The position numbers were made by a program, and so were the translations under genes. Shown in pieces: positions 89-13,058 of a DNA stretch of 33,656 nt. The stretch is from a virus. The stretch lies in IMG/VR virus record IMGVR_UViG_3300013006_000078, positions 1 to 33,656 of that record; one strand, given 5' to 3'. Each line of letters opens with the position of its first letter. The first letter of the stretch is position 1. The notes under the pieces are model-generated. The model saw only the letters and a list, made by a program, of their open reading frames with translations, made no database searches and was not told where the DNA came from.

Positions 89-3000
89 CTAACTATTGTT
101 TATTCCAACGGGAACAGTCAAATATGCATTAGGTGCACCTTGCAAACTGAACGTATCGCTGTATCCGCCACTAGAATCTGGGATTTGCCCAGTTGCCGCA
201 TTGCTTACGATATAATTTCGAGCGGCTGTTTGATTGTATGTGGGATCGATTTCTACAGCACATGCTAGCAATCCTGCCACTTGTGGGGCGGCAAAACTGG
301 TGCCGCTGTACTTTGCAATGTAGTATGTGGTGTTCCTTGGGTCGGGTACTGGCGCAGGATAACCCGACCCAGTTGGTGTGCCGGATGTTAACCAAGAGCT
401 AGTGATGTATGATCCCGGTGCAAATAAATCTACTCTAGGTCCACAATTGCTGACGCTGGATTTACGGTCGCCACCGCTGGTAACACCGGCACCAATGCTA
501 CCCACACAGATCACATTGTCTGTTGCCACAGGACTAGACCCACGAGTATAGTATATTGGTATTCCGAAATTAAATCCAGTTGCCGTGAGTGTGTTGTTGT
601 AATCAATTTCACCAGCTACAGCAATTCTTGTGTCATCATTACCAGCACAGCCTACCATGATAATTCCAGCATTGATACATGCCTGGATGTCTGCGTCCAT
701 GCTGGCATTTTGCAAACTCACAACACAGCTGCCTGCACCATTATTGGTGATACCATAGCTGAGCAAGTCAGACAAGGTGAATGGTCCTGCAATTGTTGCG
801 CCACGATAGGTCAACGAAGTGATACTGCCATAGGGAATGGTATAACGTGAGTACCAACTGTTGTTGCAAATGGTAGGAGTCATGTTGCCTGCGGCACGTT
901 TTTTGTTGTGCCAAGCTAGAATATACTTGTAAAGATACAAATATTGCACGCCACCGGTTACATATTGAGGACTGATGTTGTAGATGTTTGCATTTGGTGC
1001 CCAACCTTGAGTGTTCCCTGCTACCACGCCTGCAACAAATGTAGCATGCCTGCTGTCATCTGCCGAGTTAGGTGCTGTGGTTGTGATAGGTGGGTTATAT
1101 GTTTGCCCGGCACCAGGATTACCGGGAACATCAAGTGCATACCAGTTTACATATTTCACACGGCTGCCGCCAGTGCCACTAGCGTTGACTGCAAACTCAG
1201 GGTGGTTGGGATCAATCACAGCGTCAACAATGACGACGTCAACATTTTTTCCACTTGACTTTATATTAACTGTTCCAGTTTGATTTGGTGTACCGTCAAA
1301 CCCCCAATTAGCAATATTAACGCCCAGGAATGATCGTAATAGACCCCAATTTCGATCGGCAGCTACCAAGGTTGCTGCCTTGCTCCAGGCAGTTGAATAT
1401 CTACTCCATGGTGGTGGTGTTGATCTTGATACAGTGGGACCGGGGCTGGGTGCATCACTTAGTTGTGTGTCTAGTTGCAGTCCAGCGTCTTGCAATGCGG
1501 CAAGATTGATACCTTCTCTCATGCTGGCAACAACACTTTGTCCACTGAGTGTATCAGGATTTGCAACCGCATTTAGGTATTCACTTGCGCCACCTGGTGT
1601 GACCGATACACCATAATCATGCAAGGCGGCTGCAAAGCTCATGGACGCTGAAGAAGAGTTTCCAACAATATTACCAAAGTCAACTAATGCCGCAGTTTGA
1701 TTTTGTGCTTGTGTTATCAATGTAGATATAACATTGCCCCAAGAAGAATTGGCTCGGCTAACTTCGCTGGAGTTATTTGCAACTATGCTTGTGATAGCGG
1801 AGTTGGCAGCTGGCAATAAACCAGTTTCAAATGCTTGGTCCCAGGTGTCGTAAGTGCCTGCGCCAGGCCCCGACGGAATTATCACATTGCCTGTGCCGTC
1901 ATTGGGTGGCCCGTACACATTTCCCAAGGTGCCCAACATATTATCATAGCACCAAGACAATGTGTATAAAGAATTAGCTACTTGTAAATTAGATATAGAA
2001 TTGGATACTGTGCTTAAATTACCGTTTAAAATATATCCGCTGCCGGCACCAATTATATCTACCAACAATATTGTGCCATTTGGACCAGTACCAGCGCCCA
2101 ATTGAGATTGATAAAAAGTTTTAACGCTGGTGGGCACAGGAGTAACAAGATTTGCAATAGCCGAAAGGTTACCAATACTCTGGGTGGCTCTCATGGCCGC
2201 ACTCAATGCTGGTAGAGTGGTATTGGTTATACGTTTAATTTGCTGTAAGCTACGTGCCAGGGCCTTGTTGGCCACTGCCTGATCAGGTGGTATTATCAAC
2301 TTTAATGTAGATAAACTATTGGTATTATTAGGCCCAGTATAAGCCGAAACAGACGGATTGCTCAACACTGGCTCAAGAGCTGTGTTAATGGCTCCGTTAG
2401 ACAAATAAACTGGGGCCAAAGTTGTTGTTGTAGGGCAGAGTAATGTGTTATATGCTGATGGCAATATCTGTTTGGGATTCAGCAACTGACCTAGATTAGT
2501 TATGCCACCGACAGTGATCCCTAACACTGTCAGTGCTTGCGTTAACAAATCACCAGTCACTGCTGTTAATACTGCATAAGCGGCTTTTTCTTCTTGTGAT
2601 GATAATTCATCAACACCCTTGCTCAAGGAACTAATTTTTGTGTTTGGTATCCCGGCTGCTTGCAACAGCTCACTTATTGCGGGTAATCCACCATTGGTAA
2701 CTCGACTTATTTGTGCAATTAGTTCACCAGGCAGTCCAAGGTCATCAAGGTTGGCCAGCGAAATTAATTGTCCTAGATTGGCAAAATCTGCACCAAGCAC
2801 AGGTGAATTGTTGGTAACTTGATTTATTCCTCCTGTGCTGAGTGTGTTCATACCACCAGTAGCAGGATTAAATGTTTGCGCTAGGATATCAGCATTCTTT
2901 ACAGAATTCAACAGTTGGTTAGCCTGTGCCACATACCCATCAGCTGACTGGAATACCTGACAAAATTTTGTAAGGTCCCCGTTGCCCATTATCTCGGATA

Positions 3001-3358
3001 TGTCGTATTTGATTGCATCAGACACTAGGTAAATGTTGGCTGCAACATTGGCCGGGGTTCCACTAACCAATATATTGGCTATTACGTTACCCGGAGTCAA
3101 TGTATCTGTTAAGGCAGGGAAAGTACTAGCACCCAATGTAATAATACCTGACAAGGTAGAAGAAGAAATATTGTTGGCTGCCGCTTCAATAACAGCAGAA
3201 TTGACAACAGTTATTACATTTGAGACAAAAGGTAAACCACTGTAACGGTCAACTGCCGCGGTGTTGGCCACTATAGCAGTGCCAACATCACCAGGAGGAT
3301 TTGGTAACAGCCCAGCCCCAGCAATGGACATTACACTAGATAACTGCCCCACAATCAA
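89..3358 (-). CDS. Large virion structural protein with C-terminal subtilisin-like (S8) protease domain
   Basis: This 1,089-residue protein has two parts. Residues 1 to about 640 are Ala/Ser/Asn/Leu-rich with low-complexity stretches and no catalytic motif I recognise; they look like a phage tail or baseplate structural protein. Residues about 700-1075 are a peptidase S8 domain with a complete triad: Asp712 before a DPNHPEF segment, His771 in HATFVAG, Ser1021 in GTSFAAPQVAG, and oxyanion Asn907 in CAGND. The usual D-[ST]-G and HGT signatures are altered to D-A-V and HAT. The gene directly follows the PAAR spike-tip gene, so a role at the tail tip (processing, or digestion of host surface protein) is inferred. 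The longest reading starts at a TTG that overlaps the PAAR stop codon (TTGA); an in-frame ATG at 3331 is the alternative. No clear ribosome site supports either start. Confidence 0.85.
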   Translation of the reverse strand: MIVGQLSSVMSIAGAGLLPNPPGDVGTAIVANTAAVDRYSGLPFVSNVITVVNSAVIEAAANNISSSTLSGIITLGASTFPALTDTLTPGNVIANILVSGTPANVAANIYLVSDAIKYDISEIMGNGDLTKFCQVFQSADGYVAQANQLLNSVKNADILAQTFNPATGGMNTLSTGGINQVTNNSPVLGADFANLGQLISLANLDDLGLPGELIAQISRVTNGGLPAISELLQAAGIPNTKISSLSKGVDELSSQEEKAAYAVLTAVTGDLLTQALTVLGITVGGITNLGQLLNPKQILPSAYNTLLCPTTTTLAPVYLSNGAINTALEPVLSNPSVSAYTGPNNTNSLSTLKLIIPPDQAVANKALARSLQQIKRITNTTLPALSAAMRATQSIGNLSAIANLVTPVPTSVKTFYQSQLGAGTGPNGTILLVDIIGAGSGYILNGNLSTVSNSISNLQVANSLYTLSWCYDNMLGTLGNVYGPPNDGTGNVIIPSGPGAGTYDTWDQAFETGLLPAANSAITSIVANNSSEVSRANSSWGNVISTLITQAQNQTAALVDFGNIVGNSSSASMSFAAALHDYGVSVTPGGASEYLNAVANPDTLSGQSVVASMREGINLAALQDAGLQLDTQLSDAPSPGPTVSRSTPPPWSRYSTAWSKAATLVAADRNWGLLRSFLGVNIANWGFDGTPNQTGTVNIKSSGKNVDVVIVDAVIDPNHPEFAVNASGTGGSRVKYVNWYALDVPGNPGAGQTYNPPITTTAPNSADDSRHATFVAGVVAGNTQGWAPNANIYNISPQYVTGGVQYLYLYKYILAWHNKKRAAGNMTPTICNNSWYSRYTIPYGSITSLTYRGATIAGPFTLSDLLSYGITNNGAGSCVVSLQNASMDADIQACINAGIIMVGCAGNDDTRIAVAGEIDYNNTLTATGFNFGIPIYYTRGSSPVATDNVICVGSIGAGVTSGGDRKSSVSNCGPRVDLFAPGSYITSSWLTSGTPTGSGYPAPVPDPRNTTYYIAKYSGTSFAAPQVAGLLACAVEIDPTYNQTAARNYIVSNAATGQIPDSSGGYSDTFSLQGAPNAYLTVPVGINNS

Positions 3359-3627
3359 GTACCCACGTAGACATCACCACTACCTGTGGTATGAGTGTGC
3401 TTGCAGAGATCTTTGGCTCCCACATACGTAACCGGCTTACCGCCAGCATAAACTGTACCGCTTCCTTGTTGCACAGTGGCCTTGGCATGTATAGCACCTT
3501 TTGGATGCGGGGTAATCTTGTCACCAACTACAGCAACGGGCCTACCATTTACTTGTACTGACCCCACGCCACCCAGTATGATGCCTTTACCATTGTTTTG
3601 GTCACCTACTCTGCATACTTGTGGCAT
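3355..3627 (-). CDS. PAAR-domain spike-tip protein (T4 gp5.4-like)
   Basis: This 90-residue protein has the length and repeat pattern of PAAR proteins, which cap the tail spike of myoviruses and type VI secretion systems. Visible features are the N-terminal VCRVGDQNNG segment, the GSVQVNGRPVAVVGD repeat, the PHPKG turn, a second hairpin (GTVYAGGKPVTYVG), and Cys5, His41, His47, Cys75 and His77 region residues of the kind that bind the metal at the tip. In T4 the tip sits on the gp5 needle and is the first part to meet the cell envelope. The gene overlaps the start of the subtilisin-domain protein and lies 8 nt after the preceding small gene, so these three are co-transcribed. Confidence 0.9.
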   Translation of the reverse strand: MPQVCRVGDQNNGKGIILGGVGSVQVNGRPVAVVGDKITPHPKGAIHAKATVQQGSGTVYAGGKPVTYVGAKDLCKHTHTTGSGDVYVGT

Positions 3628-5699: not shown

Positions 5700-8012
5700 T
5701 TAGATTGTGCAACTATCGCATTCGGCATCGTCTTGTACTGCAACATCAACGGATTCAGTCAATACCTGTTTTTGATTCAATCGATCAAGATCAATCTCAC
5801 CCGATCCATCATATGTGTTAAAGTAGTATAGCTGTTTGCCACCATACTTATAAAACATCACAAGGTGTTTTAGCATATCACTGAGAGGAATCTTTTCATC
5901 TTCGTAGTGTTGTGGATTGTATGAAGTGTTTACGCTGATGCCCTGGTCAATATATTTTTGCAAGACTGCGCAGATTTTTAGATAGCCTTCGGGCGATTTC
6001 TGATCCCATAATAACTCGTATTTGTTTTTTAAACGACGATATTCGGGGACAACTTGTTTGAGCACACCGTCTTTGCTTTGTTTGATTGATACATAGCTAC
6101 GTGGAGGTTCAATGCCGTTTGTGGCATTTGAAATCTGTGCGCTGGTCTCTGCTGGCATCAAAGCCATCAAGGTTGAATTACGAATGCCAGTACGCTTGAG
6201 TTGTTCACGCAGGCCTGACCAGTCTACTTCATCCTGGTGTGGCACAAGTTCGTCTACTTCACGCTTGTAAGTGTCCACCGGTAATACACCATCATGATAC
6301 TTGGTTTCATTAGATTTAGGGCATGCGCCAAATTCCTGAGCAAGGTCTGCCGATGCCTTGATTAGGTAGTAACTCCAGTGTTGTGCCCATTTGTCAACTA
6401 GTACCAGAGAGGCAGGATTACTGTAGCTAAGATCATTCTTGGCCAACCAGTAGGCAAGATTAATAATGCCTACACCTAGTGGGCGGCGATTCTCTGTGGC
6501 CAACTGTGCGGCCAAGATGGGGTAATTTTGATAGCTCAACAATGCATCTAGGCCTCGTACTGCCAGTGTACATGCTTTTTCCATGTCCTCTGGGTCGCGA
6601 AACGATCCCCAGTTCAGTGCACTTAATGTGCACAATGCAATTTCGCCCTCGGGGTCGTTGATATCGTTGAGTGGTTTAGTGGGCAAGTCAATTTCACTGC
6701 ACAAGTTGCTTTGTCGGATTGGTGCAAGCTCGGGCTTGAAGCTACCGTGACTGTTGGCATGGTCTACATTTTGCAAATAGATACGACCAGTGTCTTTGCG
6801 TTCTTGCATGAAGCGACTAAACAACTCCACTGCTGAAATTGTTTTCTTTCGAAGTTTAGTATTACGTTCTGCTTTTTCATATAGGTCACGAAACTTTTCC
6901 ACATCTGTATAAAATGCATCAAACATTTCAGGAACGTCGTGCGGCGAGAACAATGTGATATTACCATTGGTCAACAGTCGTTCATACATGACTTTGTTGA
7001 ACTGCACTCCATAGTCCATTTGGCGCACACGATTATCATCAGTGCCTTTGTTGTTTTTTAATACCAAGAGATCTTCTACTTCAAGATGCCATAGTGGATA
7101 GTACAAGGTGGCAGCCCCATTACGCACTCCACCTTGTGAGCATGACCGTGTTGCTGCCTGGAACATTTTGTAAAAAGGAATAACGCCTGTGTGGTATGCA
7201 TCGCCTGACCGAATAGGAGAACCAATTGCACGTATACGTGCGGCTCCGATACCAATGCCGGCTTTTTGACTCACATACTTTACAATGCTAGATGTAGTGG
7301 CATTGATACTGTCCAAACTGTCACCTGTTTCGATCAACACACAGCTAGAGAATTGACGTTGCGGAGTACGCACCCCGGCCATGACAGGAGTGGGCAAACT
7401 GATCTGATGTGTGGATATAGCATCGTAGTAATCACGTATCCAGGTCATGCGTGTGTTCTTGGGATACTTGCCAAACAAAGTGGCAGCAATTAATGCATAC
7501 GCCACTTGCGGTGTTTCAAAAATTTCTTTTGTCACACGATTTTGCACAAGATACTTGCCGCGGAACTGTTCCATGGCAGCATAAGTCAATTGTTCATCTC
7601 GGTCATGCCGGACAAAGCCATTAATACGATCCCACTCTTCTGCGCTGTAAGTTTCCAACAGCTCTTTATCATAAAAGCCACTAGCAACATTACGGTCAAC
7701 CAGTTCCTTTATGTGACAAGGTTGAAATGCCCCATACACTTGTTTACGCAAATGATAGCAAATTAATCTACCGGCCACGTACTGGTAGTTTGGAGTTTCT
7801 TCTGAAATTAAATCAGCCGCACTCTTGATCAGAGTTTCCTGAATACTTGACGTAGAGACTCCGTTAAAAAATTGTAAGTGGCTTTTGATTTCTACTTCGC
7901 TTGCTGAAACTCCTGTGATCCCCTCTGTTGCCCAAAACACTACTTGATGTAGTTTTTCTATGTCTAGCGGCTCACGATTGCCGCTCCGCTTTAGTACGTG
8001 GATTTGTGTCAT
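5700..8012 (-). CDS. nrdA: Ribonucleotide reductase class Ia, alpha (catalytic) subunit
   Basis: This 770-residue protein is full length for NrdA (E. coli 761). Residues 1 to about 95 form an ATP-cone, so allosteric activity control is probably kept. The catalytic set is intact: redox pair Cys224 (QFSSCVLIE) and Cys461 (ALCTLSALNWG), thiyl Cys438 with Asn436 and Glu440 (SNLCSEI), radical-transfer tyrosines Tyr729-Tyr730, and the C-terminal shuttle pair Cys765/Cys768 (CDSC). It reduces ribonucleoside diphosphates with NrdB and glutaredoxin, encoded immediately downstream. The start codon lies 4 nt from the preceding gene's stop. No ribosome site is obvious, so coupled translation is likely. 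Confidence 0.97.
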   Translation of the reverse strand: MTQIHVLKRSGNREPLDIEKLHQVVFWATEGITGVSASEVEIKSHLQFFNGVSTSSIQETLIKSAADLISEETPNYQYVAGRLICYHLRKQVYGAFQPCHIKELVDRNVASGFYDKELLETYSAEEWDRINGFVRHDRDEQLTYAAMEQFRGKYLVQNRVTKEIFETPQVAYALIAATLFGKYPKNTRMTWIRDYYDAISTHQISLPTPVMAGVRTPQRQFSSCVLIETGDSLDSINATTSSIVKYVSQKAGIGIGAARIRAIGSPIRSGDAYHTGVIPFYKMFQAATRSCSQGGVRNGAATLYYPLWHLEVEDLLVLKNNKGTDDNRVRQMDYGVQFNKVMYERLLTNGNITLFSPHDVPEMFDAFYTDVEKFRDLYEKAERNTKLRKKTISAVELFSRFMQERKDTGRIYLQNVDHANSHGSFKPELAPIRQSNLCSEIDLPTKPLNDINDPEGEIALCTLSALNWGSFRDPEDMEKACTLAVRGLDALLSYQNYPILAAQLATENRRPLGVGIINLAYWLAKNDLSYSNPASLVLVDKWAQHWSYYLIKASADLAQEFGACPKSNETKYHDGVLPVDTYKREVDELVPHQDEVDWSGLREQLKRTGIRNSTLMALMPAETSAQISNATNGIEPPRSYVSIKQSKDGVLKQVVPEYRRLKNKYELLWDQKSPEGYLKICAVLQKYIDQGISVNTSYNPQHYEDEKIPLSDMLKHLVMFYKYGGKQLYYFNTYDGSGEIDLDRLNQKQVLTESVDVAVQDDAECDSCTI

Positions 8013-8015
8013 TGT

Positions 8016-8441
8016 CTAGTTTATTAAAAAGTATAATTTTTCACAGTCAAGCCGCTGTGATGTTTTAAAATGTTCTGAATCGATATTTAATAGCTCACGT
8101 GGGCACCAATTCAGTATATATTTCCCATTGTCTACCAGGACTAAATTGTCATTGTTGTACTGGACAATACTGAGTCGATCTCGATAGCTATTGTCTACCA
8201 TCATTAAAGTATACACTATTCCCAGTGCTCTTGCAAGGTCGCACCAGTTATTTTTATCCAACAAGTCCCAGGGATCAGGCCAATTGGGGAAATCGCCCCA
8301 GTGCAAATAATGGTTTATCATGGGAGCACGGAACCACCAATCGTTGATGGCAAGATATCGATTGTAACCCGATGAGTCAGTCACAGCAACACGCAAAGCA
8401 TGCCACTGTTGTAGGCGTTCTTCAAAGGTAATAGGCCACAT
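8016..8441 (-). CDS. Conserved phage hypothetical coupled to the tail spike gene
   Basis: This 141-residue protein is rich in Trp and Asp/Asn (for example NDWWFRAPM and WPDPWDLL). It has no signal peptide or membrane segment. I recognise the pattern as one that recurs after tail fibre genes in marine T4-like phages, but it has no assigned function that I know. Its ATG shares one base with the stop codon of the tail spike gene (TAATG), so the two are translationally coupled. A tail-spike assembly or chaperone role would fit that position but is only inference. Confidence 0.7.
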   Translation of the reverse strand: MWPITFEERLQQWHALRVAVTDSSGYNRYLAINDWWFRAPMINHYLHWGDFPNWPDPWDLLDKNNWCDLARALGIVYTLMMVDNSYRDRLSIVQYNNDNLVLVDNGKYILNWCPRELLNIDSEHFKTSQRLDCEKLYFLIN

Positions 8442-10018
8442 TAGGCTAAGTGAGTGATTGAATAGGTTAAAGTGCCGGACAAGCCGGTTGAAGATGTGGT
8501 GTACTGCATCTGTACCTGAGATCCTGATTGTGTCACATTCAACACAACTCCAGTGAAAGTATTTTCGGTATAGTCATCTGATGTTGCTAAATCACCAACA
8601 CTGTCTGCAGGGCCAGAAACCACTGTCATAATGCCATTTCGTACAGCCGAGCCTCGAGTGATGGTGTAAAACATTTGAAATGCTTTTACGTCATCGTTGT
8701 TGACATAAAAAATAGGCTGGTATGATGATTGATTGTTTAGTAAAGTAAATGTTTTACCATTGCCTTGAAACAGTCTACCCATTTGTGATTGTACACCACC
8801 GGATGTGGCAACACTAGATAATATACGAACCCGAGGCATAATGTAAGCATCACTGTCGGATCTTTCAAACAGGTCATTTACAGATACGTTGTTGTCGTTT
8901 CCAAATGAAATTATTGGACTTAGTGGAGTCCCTGTTGAAATGTTGTAGCCCACATTGTAAAATACATTGTAAGCTGATACATTAAGTCCGGCCTCGCCGT
9001 AATCAATGGCCTCGGCATAGATGTTATTGAACATGTTATGCACTGTACGGAACCCAGTAGGTCCTGTACCTGAGTCAACACCGAGCACAATACCTTGATA
9101 CAAATAATTAAAGTTGCTGTTACTAACAGTGATTCCCATTAGTTCTGCACCAGTGGCAATACCATATGTGATATTTTCAAAAGAACAACAATCAAATGTT
9201 ATATCTTGTGTGACAAGTGTGGTGGTACTTGCAAATCCCACTGCGGCAATGTCTGGCAGAGGAGTTACGTCAGCGTTTTCAAGGCGGGCTGTTGTGATTG
9301 ATCCAACAAAATTAACACTGTGGAACCAGCATTGCTGAGCACGGTTTACAAGAAATAAACTTATATCCTCGTCGGACTGAAAGGTCATGCTAGAAATTTC
9401 AATGTTTCTAGGAGGGGTAGCACTGTTGGTACCAATGTTCACACCAGTTTGTTGGCGACTGTCTCCGTATTGAGCCAGTACCGAAGCTGATCCTCCACTC
9501 ATGTAAATTGTAGAATGGTTTGCACCTTCGCCCACAAGCTTGGCATATGTGGGAATAACAATAGTATCGGTGACAAGGTAAGTTCCAGCGGGGAAGAACA
9601 AGCTTCTACGAATTTCTGAGTTGTTTTCGCGGCAATACAATTGATACAGAGCACGATTGATTGCAGCCGTGTCGTCTGTTACCCCATCGCCAACAGCACC
9701 AAAATCTCTAATTGATGCTTGATCGTCTAGTTTGGCTTGCAAGGTACGCACAACTGGATCAGTAGCAGTTGGACCAGTTTGTGCCGCGTAACCTACCACT
9801 GTGTCTGCATAGGTATAGTTGCTCAATACCGCAATGTCAGAATTTTCAGTTAATATCTCAGTATTGCCAACAACAGGGGCACCTTCTTGCAAAGTACCAT
9901 TGCCAATGTAGAGTCGCTGACTGTCTACTGCCCAGCCCAGTTCAGCGCCAGCGAGTTGCGGTAGGTTTTCTTGTAAACCTTTACGATTGGTTATTCTGGA
10001 TACTTGTACTATAGCCAC
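8441..10018 (-). CDS. Tail spike/fibre protein with pectate-lyase-type beta-helix
   Basis: This 525-residue protein starts with a virion-attachment module (residues about 5-60; the RLYIGNGT...EGAPVVGNTE pattern recurs in phage tail fibres). After a linker comes the entry signature of pectate_lyase_3 beta-helix proteins (RDFGAVGDGVTDDTAAIN, about residues 101-118), then many short beta-helix coils to about residue 400 and a C-terminal beta-rich domain. Such spikes bind and often cleave capsule or O-antigen; the catalytic residues cannot be identified by eye. The start is GTG, chosen because GAGGA lies 8 nt upstream and a CTAAATA promoter at 10042-10048 precedes it. It is coupled to the next gene by TAATG. 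Confidence 0.87.
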   Translation of the reverse strand: MAIVQVSRITNRKGLQENLPQLAGAELGWAVDSQRLYIGNGTLQEGAPVVGNTEILTENSDIAVLSNYTYADTVVGYAAQTGPTATDPVVRTLQAKLDDQASIRDFGAVGDGVTDDTAAINRALYQLYCRENNSEIRRSLFFPAGTYLVTDTIVIPTYAKLVGEGANHSTIYMSGGSASVLAQYGDSRQQTGVNIGTNSATPPRNIEISSMTFQSDEDISLFLVNRAQQCWFHSVNFVGSITTARLENADVTPLPDIAAVGFASTTTLVTQDITFDCCSFENITYGIATGAELMGITVSNSNFNYLYQGIVLGVDSGTGPTGFRTVHNMFNNIYAEAIDYGEAGLNVSAYNVFYNVGYNISTGTPLSPIISFGNDNNVSVNDLFERSDSDAYIMPRVRILSSVATSGGVQSQMGRLFQGNGKTFTLLNNQSSYQPIFYVNNDDVKAFQMFYTITRGSAVRNGIMTVVSGPADSVGDLATSDDYTENTFTGVVLNVTQSGSQVQMQYTTSSTGLSGTLTYSITHLA

Positions 10019-10048: not shown

Positions 10049-10755
10049 TTGGCCGAGTAGTAGAATTCAACACGTTTGTTCCACTCGTTAGTCCAGTGAG
10101 CAAATTCATCACTTTCAATCACGTGTTCAGTATAAACAGGCTTGCTCAGTGTGCCATCGGGCAAAACTGCAGGTTGTTGGGCCATCATGATTACCCCTGT
10201 TTTGATATCTGTGCCATGAGTATTGTTATGTGCCGCGGCATAGGCTGTGAGCTGAATAAAATAGTCGTCAATCCATTCACGTTTTTTGGGCTTGTTGGTC
10301 TGCTTAAAATCAATAATTGCAGGCTGTCCCTTCCAGAGTCCGAGACAGTCTGTGGTTCCTGCATATAACCCACTGTAATAAACAGGAACTTCTACTCCCC
10401 AAAATTCATCTACATTGCACAGTCCCTGTAAGATAACTTCTGCGGCCATGAACCAGGAAGCATGAGCAAAGGGATTGCCAGGCAACGGTTTCATGTCTGC
10501 TTGCAGTGCATAGTGCTCTAGGTACGCATGCATTCGGGTGCCGCGATTGGCAGCTTCTGTGGTGATCTGCTGTGCTTGTTGTTCTCCCACACGCTTTTTC
10601 CAATTGGCTAGAGCCAAGCGTTTTTCTTCGGGCTTGGTACGATCCAATATGGTAGTGACGCTGGGTACTCGGCTACCGTCAGGCAAACAATAATGTCGTT
10701 TGCCGTCAATAGTTGTTCGATCCAAGGGTGAGTAATTGTATCGTTGAATTATCAT
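10045..10755 (-). CDS. PD-(D/E)XK exonuclease, MGME1/RecB-nuclease-like
   Basis: A 236-residue nuclease of the PD-(D/E)XK fold. Visible motifs are VPSVTTIL near residue 30 (typical of the MGME1-like phage exonucleases), RGTRMHAYLE (71-80, conserved His/Glu helix), GTTDCLG with Asp136, and AIIDFKQT with catalytic Asp149 and Lys151, followed by a helix with Gln and Tyr (IQLTAYAAA). It should degrade single-stranded or flapped DNA during recombination or host-genome breakdown. The few scattered cysteines (23, 113, 137) do not match the four-cysteine Fe-S site of Cas4 or AddB, so no cluster is predicted. Its ATG overlaps the iscA stop as TAATG. Confidence 0.85.
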   Translation of the reverse strand: MIIQRYNYSPLDRTTIDGKRHYCLPDGSRVPSVTTILDRTKPEEKRLALANWKKRVGEQQAQQITTEAANRGTRMHAYLEHYALQADMKPLPGNPFAHASWFMAAEVILQGLCNVDEFWGVEVPVYYSGLYAGTTDCLGLWKGQPAIIDFKQTNKPKKREWIDDYFIQLTAYAAAHNNTHGTDIKTGVIMMAQQPAVLPDGTLSKPVYTEHVIESDEFAHWTNEWNKRVEFYYSAN

Positions 10756-11078
10756 TAAATTCTAAAACTTTCTCCGCAACCACAGCGGTCACGTTCATTG
10801 GGGTTGCGAAATTCAAATCCTTCATTGAGACCATTGCGTACAAAATCAATAGTCATACCTTCAACGTATGGTTTGTTCTTGGGGTCTATAAAAACTCTAA
10901 CACCGTTGCTGTCGTAGTGCTGTACACAGTGCAAGTTGGGATTGTCTACATATTCTAACACATAAGCCAGTCCTGAGCAACCAGTAGTTTTAACTCCTAC
11001 TTGTATACCTAGCCCCTTGCCACGTTTGACCAGCGCAGTTTTGATTTTGCGGGCGGCTGCCTCAGTTACTGATATCAT
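10755..11078 (-). CDS. iscA: IscA-type iron-sulfur carrier protein
   Basis: Starting at the ATG at 11078 the protein is 107 residues, the same length as E. coli IscA. The three cluster-binding cysteines are at 34 (GCSG), 99 and 101 (CGCGESF), and the segments AYVLEYVDNP and DFVRNGLNEGFEFRNPN follow the family closely. A-type carriers accept Fe-S clusters from IscU and deliver them to apo-enzymes. The upstream in-frame TTG at 11087 was rejected: ATG 11078 forms an ATGA overlap with the previous gene and gives the family length. The gene lies one gene downstream of iscU, separated by a sulfotransferase-like gene. Confidence 0.95.
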   Translation of the reverse strand: MISVTEAAARKIKTALVKRGKGLGIQVGVKTTGCSGLAYVLEYVDNPNLHCVQHYDSNGVRVFIDPKNKPYVEGMTIDFVRNGLNEGFEFRNPNERDRCGCGESFRI

Positions 11079-11665
11079 GATTGACAAAATCCTCCAGATT
11101 CAATGCCTAATAAGTTGTACTTGATATATGGATTGACTACAATACCAAGTTCAAGTTCATCAAATAGTACTTTCAAATCTTGATGATTTATAACCAATTT
11201 TTTGTAACTATATGGTGCCCGGGCAGACCAATTACTGTAATCGTGTTGATCGGAGAGTCGCAGACCCAAGCGAGTTAATACATGCATGTAATCATCTATA
11301 AAATCTTCAAAATAAAATGTTTCAACTAATCCATACGGTCTTGTCAGATCATGATTTTTAAAATGCCAAACATGACTTGCATATTGCAGTAAGAAATTTT
11401 GTTTGGTCACTTCAAACGGTTCAATATTAGTTTGATCATAGATTGTTGTTTGGTTGGTATGCCAAACAACGCAATTAGACATAACTGCTGAAAATACATC
11501 GCGACGACGAATTATTAACAATCCTGTAATTGCATCATTATCTGTGCGGTGTTGTGGGTCATGAGTATGCACACATTGAGTATTTGTAGATTTTATTATA
11601 TCAGTAAATAGATTGCCGCCAACGCGAGGTGGGGCACTTATCAAATAACGCTCAATTGTTGTCAT
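11075..11665 (-). CDS. Sulfotransferase-like P-loop protein (tentative)
   Basis: This 196-residue protein opens with a strand-loop-helix, LISAPPRVGGNLFTDII, that looks like the PAPS-binding loop of sulfotransferases. A second segment, GLLIIRRRDVFSAVMSN, resembles the 3'-phosphate-binding motif (Arg, then Ser), and ETFYFEDFIDDYM resembles their mid-domain strand-helix. It is shorter than most sulfotransferases, and the match is by pattern only. It sits between iscU (22-nt gap) and iscA (ATGA overlap), so it is co-transcribed with the iron-sulfur genes. Whether it has anything to do with Fe-S chemistry is unknown. Confidence 0.5.
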   Translation of the reverse strand: MTTIERYLISAPPRVGGNLFTDIIKSTNTQCVHTHDPQHRTDNDAITGLLIIRRRDVFSAVMSNCVVWHTNQTTIYDQTNIEPFEVTKQNFLLQYASHVWHFKNHDLTRPYGLVETFYFEDFIDDYMHVLTRLGLRLSDQHDYSNWSARAPYSYKKLVINHQDLKVLFDELELGIVVNPYIKYNLLGIESGGFCQS

Positions 11666-11687: not shown

Positions 11688-12071
11688 CTATTGGTGTTTT
11701 TTTCTGTAGTCCTCAACCGCCGCTTTGATTGCATCTTCTGCAAGTATTGAACAGTGTATCTTAACTGGAGGTAGTGCTAGCTCTTCGGCGATTTCGGAAT
11801 TTTTGATTGCTCCGGCTTGATCGAGGTGCATGCCTTTGACCCACTCCGTAATAAGGCTCGAGCTCGCAATAGCCGATCCGCAGCCATACGTTTTAAATTT
11901 TGCATCTGTAATAATACCTGTATCATGATCTACCTTTATCTGTAGTTTCATTACGTCACCGCAAGCAGGTGCGCCAACCATACCAGTACCAATACCAGTA
12001 TCACTCTTGTCAAAAGATCCAACATTCCTGGGATTTTCATAATGATCTACTACTTGTGTGCTATATGCCAT
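11688..12071 (-). CDS. iscU: IscU iron-sulfur cluster scaffold
   Basis: A 127-residue protein, against 128 in E. coli, matching IscU along its whole length. The cluster-assembly residues are all present: Cys37 and Asp39 (PACGDV), Cys64 (YGCGSA), His106 and Cys107, and the LPPVK chaperone-recognition motif at 100-104, which HscA binds in bacteria. The start at ATG 12071 is supported by an AGAGAGG ribosome site and by the conserved MAYS N-terminus; a TTG 15 codons upstream is rejected. No cysteine desulfurase (IscS), HscA/HscB or ferredoxin gene lies in this window, so host partners must supply sulfur and energy. Wording of the sequence looks betaproteobacterial to me. Confidence 0.96.
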   Translation of the reverse strand: MAYSTQVVDHYENPRNVGSFDKSDTGIGTGMVGAPACGDVMKLQIKVDHDTGIITDAKFKTYGCGSAIASSSLITEWVKGMHLDQAGAIKNSEIAEELALPPVKIHCSILAEDAIKAAVEDYRKKHQ

Positions 12072-12130
12072 GTGTGCCTCTCTTGATATTGTACTATCTT
12101 TTTTGGTAAAGATCAATGACTTCTGGTGTG

Positions 12131-12155
12131 CTTGAATATTTATTGATTATTCAAG
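12131..12155. repeat. Perfect inverted repeat over the iscU promoter
   Basis: CTTGAATA at 12131-12138 is followed after 9 nt by TATTCAAG at 12148-12155. The 8-bp palindrome covers the stop codon of the radical SAM gene and the ATAAATA motif in front of iscU. No T run follows on the minus strand, so it is not an ordinary terminator. It could be an operator or an mRNA end structure. Confidence 0.5.
12137..12143 (-). promoter_or_regulatory. Late-type promoter ATAAATA upstream of iscU
   Basis: ATAAATA on the minus strand lies 65 nt upstream of the iscU ATG, inside the loop and arm of the inverted repeat at 12131-12155. The longer leader leaves room for regulation. It is close to the T4 late consensus TATAAATA. 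Confidence 0.45.
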
Positions 12156-13058
12156 ACCTTTTCTGATAGATATAATTTTTTTGAATTCGTTTTTGGTGGG
12201 ACAAAATTTGCACTGTGGGATGGGGTTGTCTATTGTGGACAAAAACTCTGCACCTTTTGTGGGGAAATCATCAATAGACAATGGAGCATAAGAGTTGAGC
12301 AGGTCTCGATCAGAATCTGAAATATCAAAATTATGTTGCTCATCAAATTCCGGGAACAATGCAACAGGGCCACATTTGTACAACTTTCCACGTATGAAAT
12401 GATATGATTTGTTTTGGACAATTGGGCAGACAGCATGGGCATCGTCGGGCACACTAGAGTGCAATCCATATCGGCCATCGGGCAAGAACTTGATTGCACT
12501 GGGCATGAACTCATCTTGAATCCATACTGGGATCCATGCACGGTTAACGTCTCGTCCACTGCCCGGGGTGACGGTTGTGTTGCTGTCTAAAAACTCATAG
12601 TCAGCACCATACCTGGAGGCCGGATGTCCTTTGGCAAATTTAGTAATTGGAGGTATCATGAACTTCTCAAGTTCTTTTTCCAACTCTGGCAAATAGTTTT
12701 GATCGTGTAAACTAATACCTACCCAGTTGTTGGTTTCTGACACCAGCTTGTATAGGCCACGCACATGATTGAGTCTTGTGCCATTTGTGAGGATTTGTAC
12801 ATACTTGCCCCAGATTTTTTCTAGACCATAAGCCCACTCTAGTACTGTGGGGTTGAGTAAAGGTTCTCCGCCCAAGATTACAATTTGATCAATGTCAATG
12901 TATTGAGCCCACTCTTTGTACATTTCCTCGTAGTCGCTCCATTTCTGCCAACCACGGAAATCAAGATTGTTGAATCTGTTACAATCTTCACATGTGAGGT
13001 TACACACGTTTGTTATGTAGAATTCAACTTTGGATATTTTGATCCGCTCTGGGATCAT
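12147..13058 (-). CDS. Radical SAM enzyme with extra C-terminal cysteines
   Basis: This 303-residue protein has the radical SAM signature C19-X3-C23-X2-C26 (CNLTCEDC), the GGEP motif at 63-66, and a typical half-barrel start. Four more cysteines follow at 212, 230, 284 and 287 (the last two as CKFC), suggesting an auxiliary 4Fe-4S cluster of the SPASM/twitch type used by peptide- and protein-modifying members. The substrate is not evident; no obvious short peptide partner is adjacent. Its stop lies about 76 nt upstream of iscU, and it is a plausible client of the phage IscU/IscA pair. The start overlaps the preceding gene as ATGA. Confidence 0.85.
   Translation of the reverse strand: MIPERIKISKVEFYITNVCNLTCEDCNRFNNLDFRGWQKWSDYEEMYKEWAQYIDIDQIVILGGEPLLNPTVLEWAYGLEKIWGKYVQILTNGTRLNHVRGLYKLVSETNNWVGISLHDQNYLPELEKELEKFMIPPITKFAKGHPASRYGADYEFLDSNTTVTPGSGRDVNRAWIPVWIQDEFMPSAIKFLPDGRYGLHSSVPDDAHAVCPIVQNKSYHFIRGKLYKCGPVALFPEFDEQHNFDISDSDRDLLNSYAPLSIDDFPTKGAEFLSTIDNPIPQCKFCPTKNEFKKIISIRKGLE

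Follow-up and report, generated by a model that had tools for sequence, protein, structure and literature searches.

A subtilisin-type protease joined to the partner of a PAAR tail-tip gene in a virus known from environmental DNA

The PAAR-partner fusion gene and its surroundings

The question raised by this locus is why the gene lying directly behind a phage PAAR tail-tip gene should encode a subtilisin-type (S8) protease, and where such a protease may act. Tail-tip enzymes are already known and they mostly cut peptidoglycan or polysaccharide. The window, i.e., the whole stretch of DNA that was analysed, is an entire virus record of 33,656 bases from a virus that is represented by environmental DNA only. 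All near relatives of this phage are metagenomic, and in the phage collection no DNA relative was found near the window beyond a 59-bp match in nrdB. S8 genes have already been annotated in cyanophage genomes and an S8 peptidase has been noted previously (PMC3037559). In the open-access literature we found no account of a phage subtilisin that is located at a tail tip or linked to PAAR. The same is true of three findings described below, viz. the family of PAAR partners, the fusion of gp5 with S8, and the recurrent capture of a single clade without propeptide.

The fusion gene (89..3358, minus strand) codes from a TTG start for a protein of 1,089 aa, in which a two-domain PAAR partner, which we will refer to as the scaffold, is followed by the S8 protease; this architecture is common to the relatives L009, L024, L141, and L224. 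A GTG located two codons downstream is the likelier start, because L024 starts at this position, and nothing else is altered by this choice. The PAAR gene itself (3355..3627, minus strand; 90 aa; PF05488, E value 3.2e-10) overlaps the fusion gene by 4 bp. Within the scaffold, a mostly helical domain 1 (aa 1–316; 2411..3358, minus strand; profile A1), which is a gene of its own in about 40 other loci, is connected by a linker (aa 317–343; 2330..2410, minus strand) to domain 2 (aa 344–640; 1439..2329, minus strand; profile A2). The linker is the site at which the gene is split elsewhere and also the site of protease insertion in the locus L011. The natural C-terminus of the scaffold is joined to the S8 domain by a Pro/Ser/Thr-rich stretch (approximately aa 637–650; 1409..1438, minus strand), and this joint is clean, as the protein of L025, which is without a protease, stops at LDTQLPDTPS and that of the window runs on (LDTQLSDAPSPGPTVSRSTPPPWSR). 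The remainder of the protein consists of a proteinase K-like S8 catalytic domain (approximately aa 651–1083; 110..1408, minus strand) without an I9-like N-terminal domain.

Several other genes of the window, all on the minus strand, also deserve mention. An IscU protein (11688–12116; TIGR01999, 217 bits, above the cut-off) constitutes a phage-borne component of Fe-S cluster assembly, and an IscA-like protein (10755–11087) matched TIGR02011 with 138 bits, which is under the cut-off of 150.6. The best curated match of a radical SAM protein (12147–13058) was the viperin family, with 41 bits against a cut-off of 180 and thus far below it. A tailspike-like protein with a pectate-lyase-type fold (8441–10018; PF12708, E value 1e-21) is encoded by a gene which, together with the 141-aa gene that follows it, is found ahead of nrdA in several relatives as well.

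Conservation of the S8 catalytic domain

The assignment of the C-terminal region to the S8 family is based upon a match to Peptidase_S8 (Pfam PF00082) at aa 703–1065 (E value 1.2e-22; 81.1 bits against a cut-off of 21.8) and upon a match of the PHROG_9158 profile to aa 660–1082 (E value 4.4e-52). The triad is present in the order D-H-S together with the oxyanion Asn, and the residue numbers given in the initial annotation proved to be exact: Asp712 (1223..1225), His771 (1046..1048), Asn907 (638..640), and Ser1021 (296..298), all on the minus strand. These residues are intact and conserved, the triad Asp being retained in 102 of the 103 distinct relatives and the His, Asn, and Ser in every one of them. 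The same annotation considered the D-A-V and HAT contexts to be altered in a manner that may tune specificity. Across the 103 relatives the sequence is D-G-x in 82 and H-G in 86, and Ala occurs in 14 rows at each site; hence, these contexts are not peculiar to the fusion. For the S8 domain, dN/dS is 0.06 in comparison with L009 and 0.10 in comparison with L024, synonymous change greatly exceeding amino acid change, and a domain under selection and of an enzyme-like nature is therefore indicated rather than a chance resemblance. Judged by these characteristics, the S8 domain of the fusion looks catalytically competent.

The same observations bear upon the proposal that the S8 fold is a binding or structural domain, viz. 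a decoration or an adhesin for which catalysis is irrelevant. A tail sheath protein with a triad-less subtilase-like domain has been described (PMC13118943), and other inserts are present in the same scaffold, in the loci L029 and L136. However, if the role were structural only, the triad and the oxyanion Asn would not have been preserved in 102 or more of the 103 divergent members, and we regard this proposal as very improbable.

The scaffold and its linkage to PAAR

A PAAR gene was found directly upstream of the scaffold in all 87 of the distinct scaffold loci in IMG/VR with upstream sequence, mostly at a spacing of -4 to +5 bp. The fusion is real, and the placement of the 1,089-residue protein directly after the PAAR gene is a regular feature of this family. 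Additionally, PAAR is present once in each of seven large records (up to 352 kb), three of which carry gp25-like wedge genes, two of these exceeding the family cut-off. As the fold of the scaffold is without a known match, it is only gene linkage that points to its probable place in the tail.

The initial annotation had suggested that the N-terminal part may resemble gp5/gp27, and the structure prediction led to a different result. The model of residues 1–645, which was based upon 60 aligned relatives (pLDDT 90, pTM 0.75), is that of a mostly helical protein of two domains joined by a stretch of low confidence (residues 336–346, pLDDT <50). In Foldseek searches with this model nothing significant was obtained from the PDB, and its matches were limited to five uncharacterised proteins of uncultured phages. 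No PHROG matched the window scaffold, and searching 50,697 phage records yielded no relative of it. In view of the absence of a PDB fold, a PHROG match and a relative in the phage records, a gp5/gp27-like sequence or fold was ruled out, and the scaffold is best described as an orphan. A model of the full-length fusion from the single sequence reached a pLDDT of 33 and was not used. A bacterial origin was likewise rejected, as it concerned three loci only, from one water metagenome bin, which are possibly misbinned phage.

In about 40 loci (L031, L033, L060, L127, and about 35 others) the scaffold is encoded by two adjacent, mostly overlapping genes that are split at the inter-domain linker, and on the tree the split and fused states alternate, with five changes. 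Domain 1 was also observed to hold other inserts: one of about 230 aa in L029 (2069–3880) and two similar repeats of about 85 aa in L136 (5380–6987). No family match and no significant PDB match was obtained for either; an Ig-like or lectin-like identity, which was suspected by eye, found no support.

The protease as an optional addition to the scaffold

The scaffold usually occurs without a protease. Among 54 representatives only six carry the S8 domain, at the C-terminal end in five (the window and the four relatives sharing its architecture) and internally in one. The latter is L011, a 352-kb record that shares the nrdA-nrdB-glutaredoxin-PAAR neighbourhood with the window, in which the S8 domain sits between the two scaffold domains, at the point of the gene split seen in other phages. 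Complete single-gene scaffolds without a protease are 627–694 aa in length (43 distinct). In the scaffold tree, L011 clustered with the protease-less L027, L111, and L080, whereas the group with C-terminal S8 clustered with the protease-less L025, L107, and L043, and a single clade consisting of the six protease-bearing scaffolds was rejected (p-AU 1.6e-23). The six S8 domains borne by PAAR partners may or may not form a single clade, for which a smaller, more careful tree gave support of 48/72. Judging from the scaffold tree, two acquisitions, or repeated loss along with repositioning, are needed to account for the scaffold-borne S8. The protease module can be absent or exchanged, and is therefore probably of use on particular hosts or surfaces.

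These results also bear upon the possibility that the enzyme is a virion-maturation protease, which during assembly would cleave the linker in its own chain or tail proteins next to it, as in the maturation cleavage of T4 gp5. The flexible Pro/Ser/Thr-rich joint ahead of the S8 domain would be consistent with such a role, and processing peptidases are often found among phage structural gene sets (PMC7824862). However, in six large scaffold-bearing records, which are possibly fragments, no S8 of the PHROG_9158-type family was found. Since no such S8 was seen in these records and most of the scaffold relatives lack the protease, the scaffold and PAAR seem not to need it. Additionally, the S8 domain is C-terminal in some proteins and internal in another, and its carriers differ, which is a poor fit to one conserved cleavage site. 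We therefore consider maturation to be unlikely, and the processing of baseplate parts in cis, which was among the roles proposed initially, is unlikely to be the main job of this domain.

A clade of S8 domains on different tail proteins

An N-terminal domain of about 85 aa was matched by an I9-like profile in 105 of the 119 complete distinct S8 proteins, and this profile gave no match in the window protein or the other 13 fused forms (14 of 119). Pfam I9 matched the standard relatives only weakly (7 of 15, the best E value being 0.0029), and the domain is therefore called I9-like in this work. The I9-less sequences formed a single branch, with 99% SH-aLRT support in the tree of 103 rows and 100/100 in the smaller tree.

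Members of this clade are found on other carriers. In L142–L144, a sister S8 domain is joined to the OB domain of gp5, in the place of the lysozyme, and is followed by gp25 and gp6; residues 3–134 of these proteins matched PHROG_694 (baseplate hub and tail lysozyme) with an E value of 3.5e-24 and showed 41% identity to the tail lysozyme gp5 of a Vibrio phage. In L015 the S8 domain of this clade is part of a 746-aa protein flanked by gp5 parts and gp25 in a hub operon, in L013 it is part of a 1,048-aa protein of a baseplate wedge cluster, and in L234 it is embedded in a minor tail protein (PHROG_396) that a siphophage encodes between the tape measure and gpJ. On the basis of these gene contexts and profile matches, the cases described here show that several tail-tip or baseplate proteins that are unrelated to one another have acquired S8 domains of this clade. 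The comparison with T4, which was noted to use a lysozyme at the corresponding place, thus holds for the sister phages in which the OB domain of gp5 is fused to S8, but not literally for the window gene.

In addition to these observations, an open frame of 5,753 aa (L280, 30–17288) was found to hold an I9-less S8 domain that is sister to the siphophage form. In L163, two neighbouring S8 genes (476–2419 and 6223–8817) are present in one tail cluster, one of the two copies being fused to a YHYH domain (E value 2e-30), and a similar pair was seen in L172.

The distribution of carriers is also relevant to a further alternative, viz. that the fusion is an injected effector brought into the host by PAAR, the target of its protease being a cytoplasmic protein with a role in, e.g., defence or regulation. 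The PAAR linkage is direct and invariant, as in type VI cargo genes, and the optional, exchangeable nature of the S8 module would be in accordance with this. However, the sister domains in gp5 and in the siphophage minor tail protein belong to fixed structural parts and not to cargo, and the scaffold is kept without any enzyme; we thus consider this alternative to be slightly less probable even than maturation.

Proposed role and comparison with known systems

The explanation that we consider rather likely is that the fusion gene encodes a tail-tip protein which is paired with the PAAR spike tip and bears an accessory subtilisin-type protease acting at entry. The scaffold would sit at the PAAR tip or immediately behind it, and adsorption or contraction would then present the protease to the host envelope, where it may cut a surface or periplasmic protein and thereby ease the passage of the tail, as T4 lysozyme does. 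For the window phage we infer both the virion location and the substrate. The initial reading of a protease carried at the tail tip is thus sustained in part: the fusion, the triad, the PAAR linkage, and the sister S8 domains in undoubted tail-tip or hub proteins speak for it, and a gp5/gp27-like scaffold and baseplate processing have not been borne out. Against a strict location at the tip, the carrier in L013 belongs to a wedge cluster and much of the S8 family is found in tail-fibre clusters. For a distant homologue, the 1,411-aa S8 protein gp144 of cyanophage S-SCSM1, the record bears the tag "virion protein", as do 47 CDS of this record (counted by eye). For S-SCSM1, 45 proteins are reported as found by mass spectrometry (PMC9602691), and the virion tags most likely record this experiment.

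A broader proposal, which we make tentatively and with somewhat less than even confidence, is that the propeptide-less subtilisin clade may serve tailed phages as an "entry protease" cassette of general use. Unrelated tail-tip proteins would have captured it repeatedly, viz. the new family of PAAR partners, gp5 (where it replaces the lysozyme), and, ahead of gpJ, a minor tail protein of a siphophage, and proteolysis at the tail tip would allow some phages to cross a host barrier. In contractile as well as siphophage-type tails, protein-cutting domains hold the known places of tail-tip enzymes, that in gp5 among them. This suggests a protein barrier on the surface of some bacteria, for whose prediction the S8 domain could serve as a marker. 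This work also defines an undescribed PAAR-partner family that is common in uncultured phages and seems able to take added domains.

The solved structures closest to the S8 domain are those of the keratinase 5wsl (E value 2e-26) and aqualysin-1 4dzt (5e-26), both proteinase K-like. These subtilases are secreted as free enzymes, whereas the phage domain is longer and forms part of a tail-linked protein. With the "subtilisin-like serine protease" (PHROG_9158) of the cyanomyoviruses S-H38, Sf-FR1, S-CREM1, P-SSM2, S-RSM4, and S-SCSM1, the window domain shares the S8 family and the triad at 28–44% identity, and the cyanophage homologues are located in tail-fibre or baseplate gene clusters. However, the sampled cyanomyovirus proteins have an N-terminal region of about 85 aa or longer with an I9-like domain, and their simple forms of about 550 aa an extra C-terminal tail of about 37 aa, both of which are absent from the window domain; unlike them, the latter is fused to a PAAR partner. 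Type VI secretion systems likewise have their cargo encoded in a large gene immediately following PAAR, but the scaffold, in contrast to such cargo, is conserved without an enzyme in most phages. The likeness to T4 gp5, the baseplate hub and tail lysozyme, consists in an enzyme placed on the central tail tip, and it is closest in L142–L144, whose S8 comes after the OB domain of gp5; the scaffold in the window is not a gp5, and where T4 gp5 cuts murein the S8 domain would cut protein.
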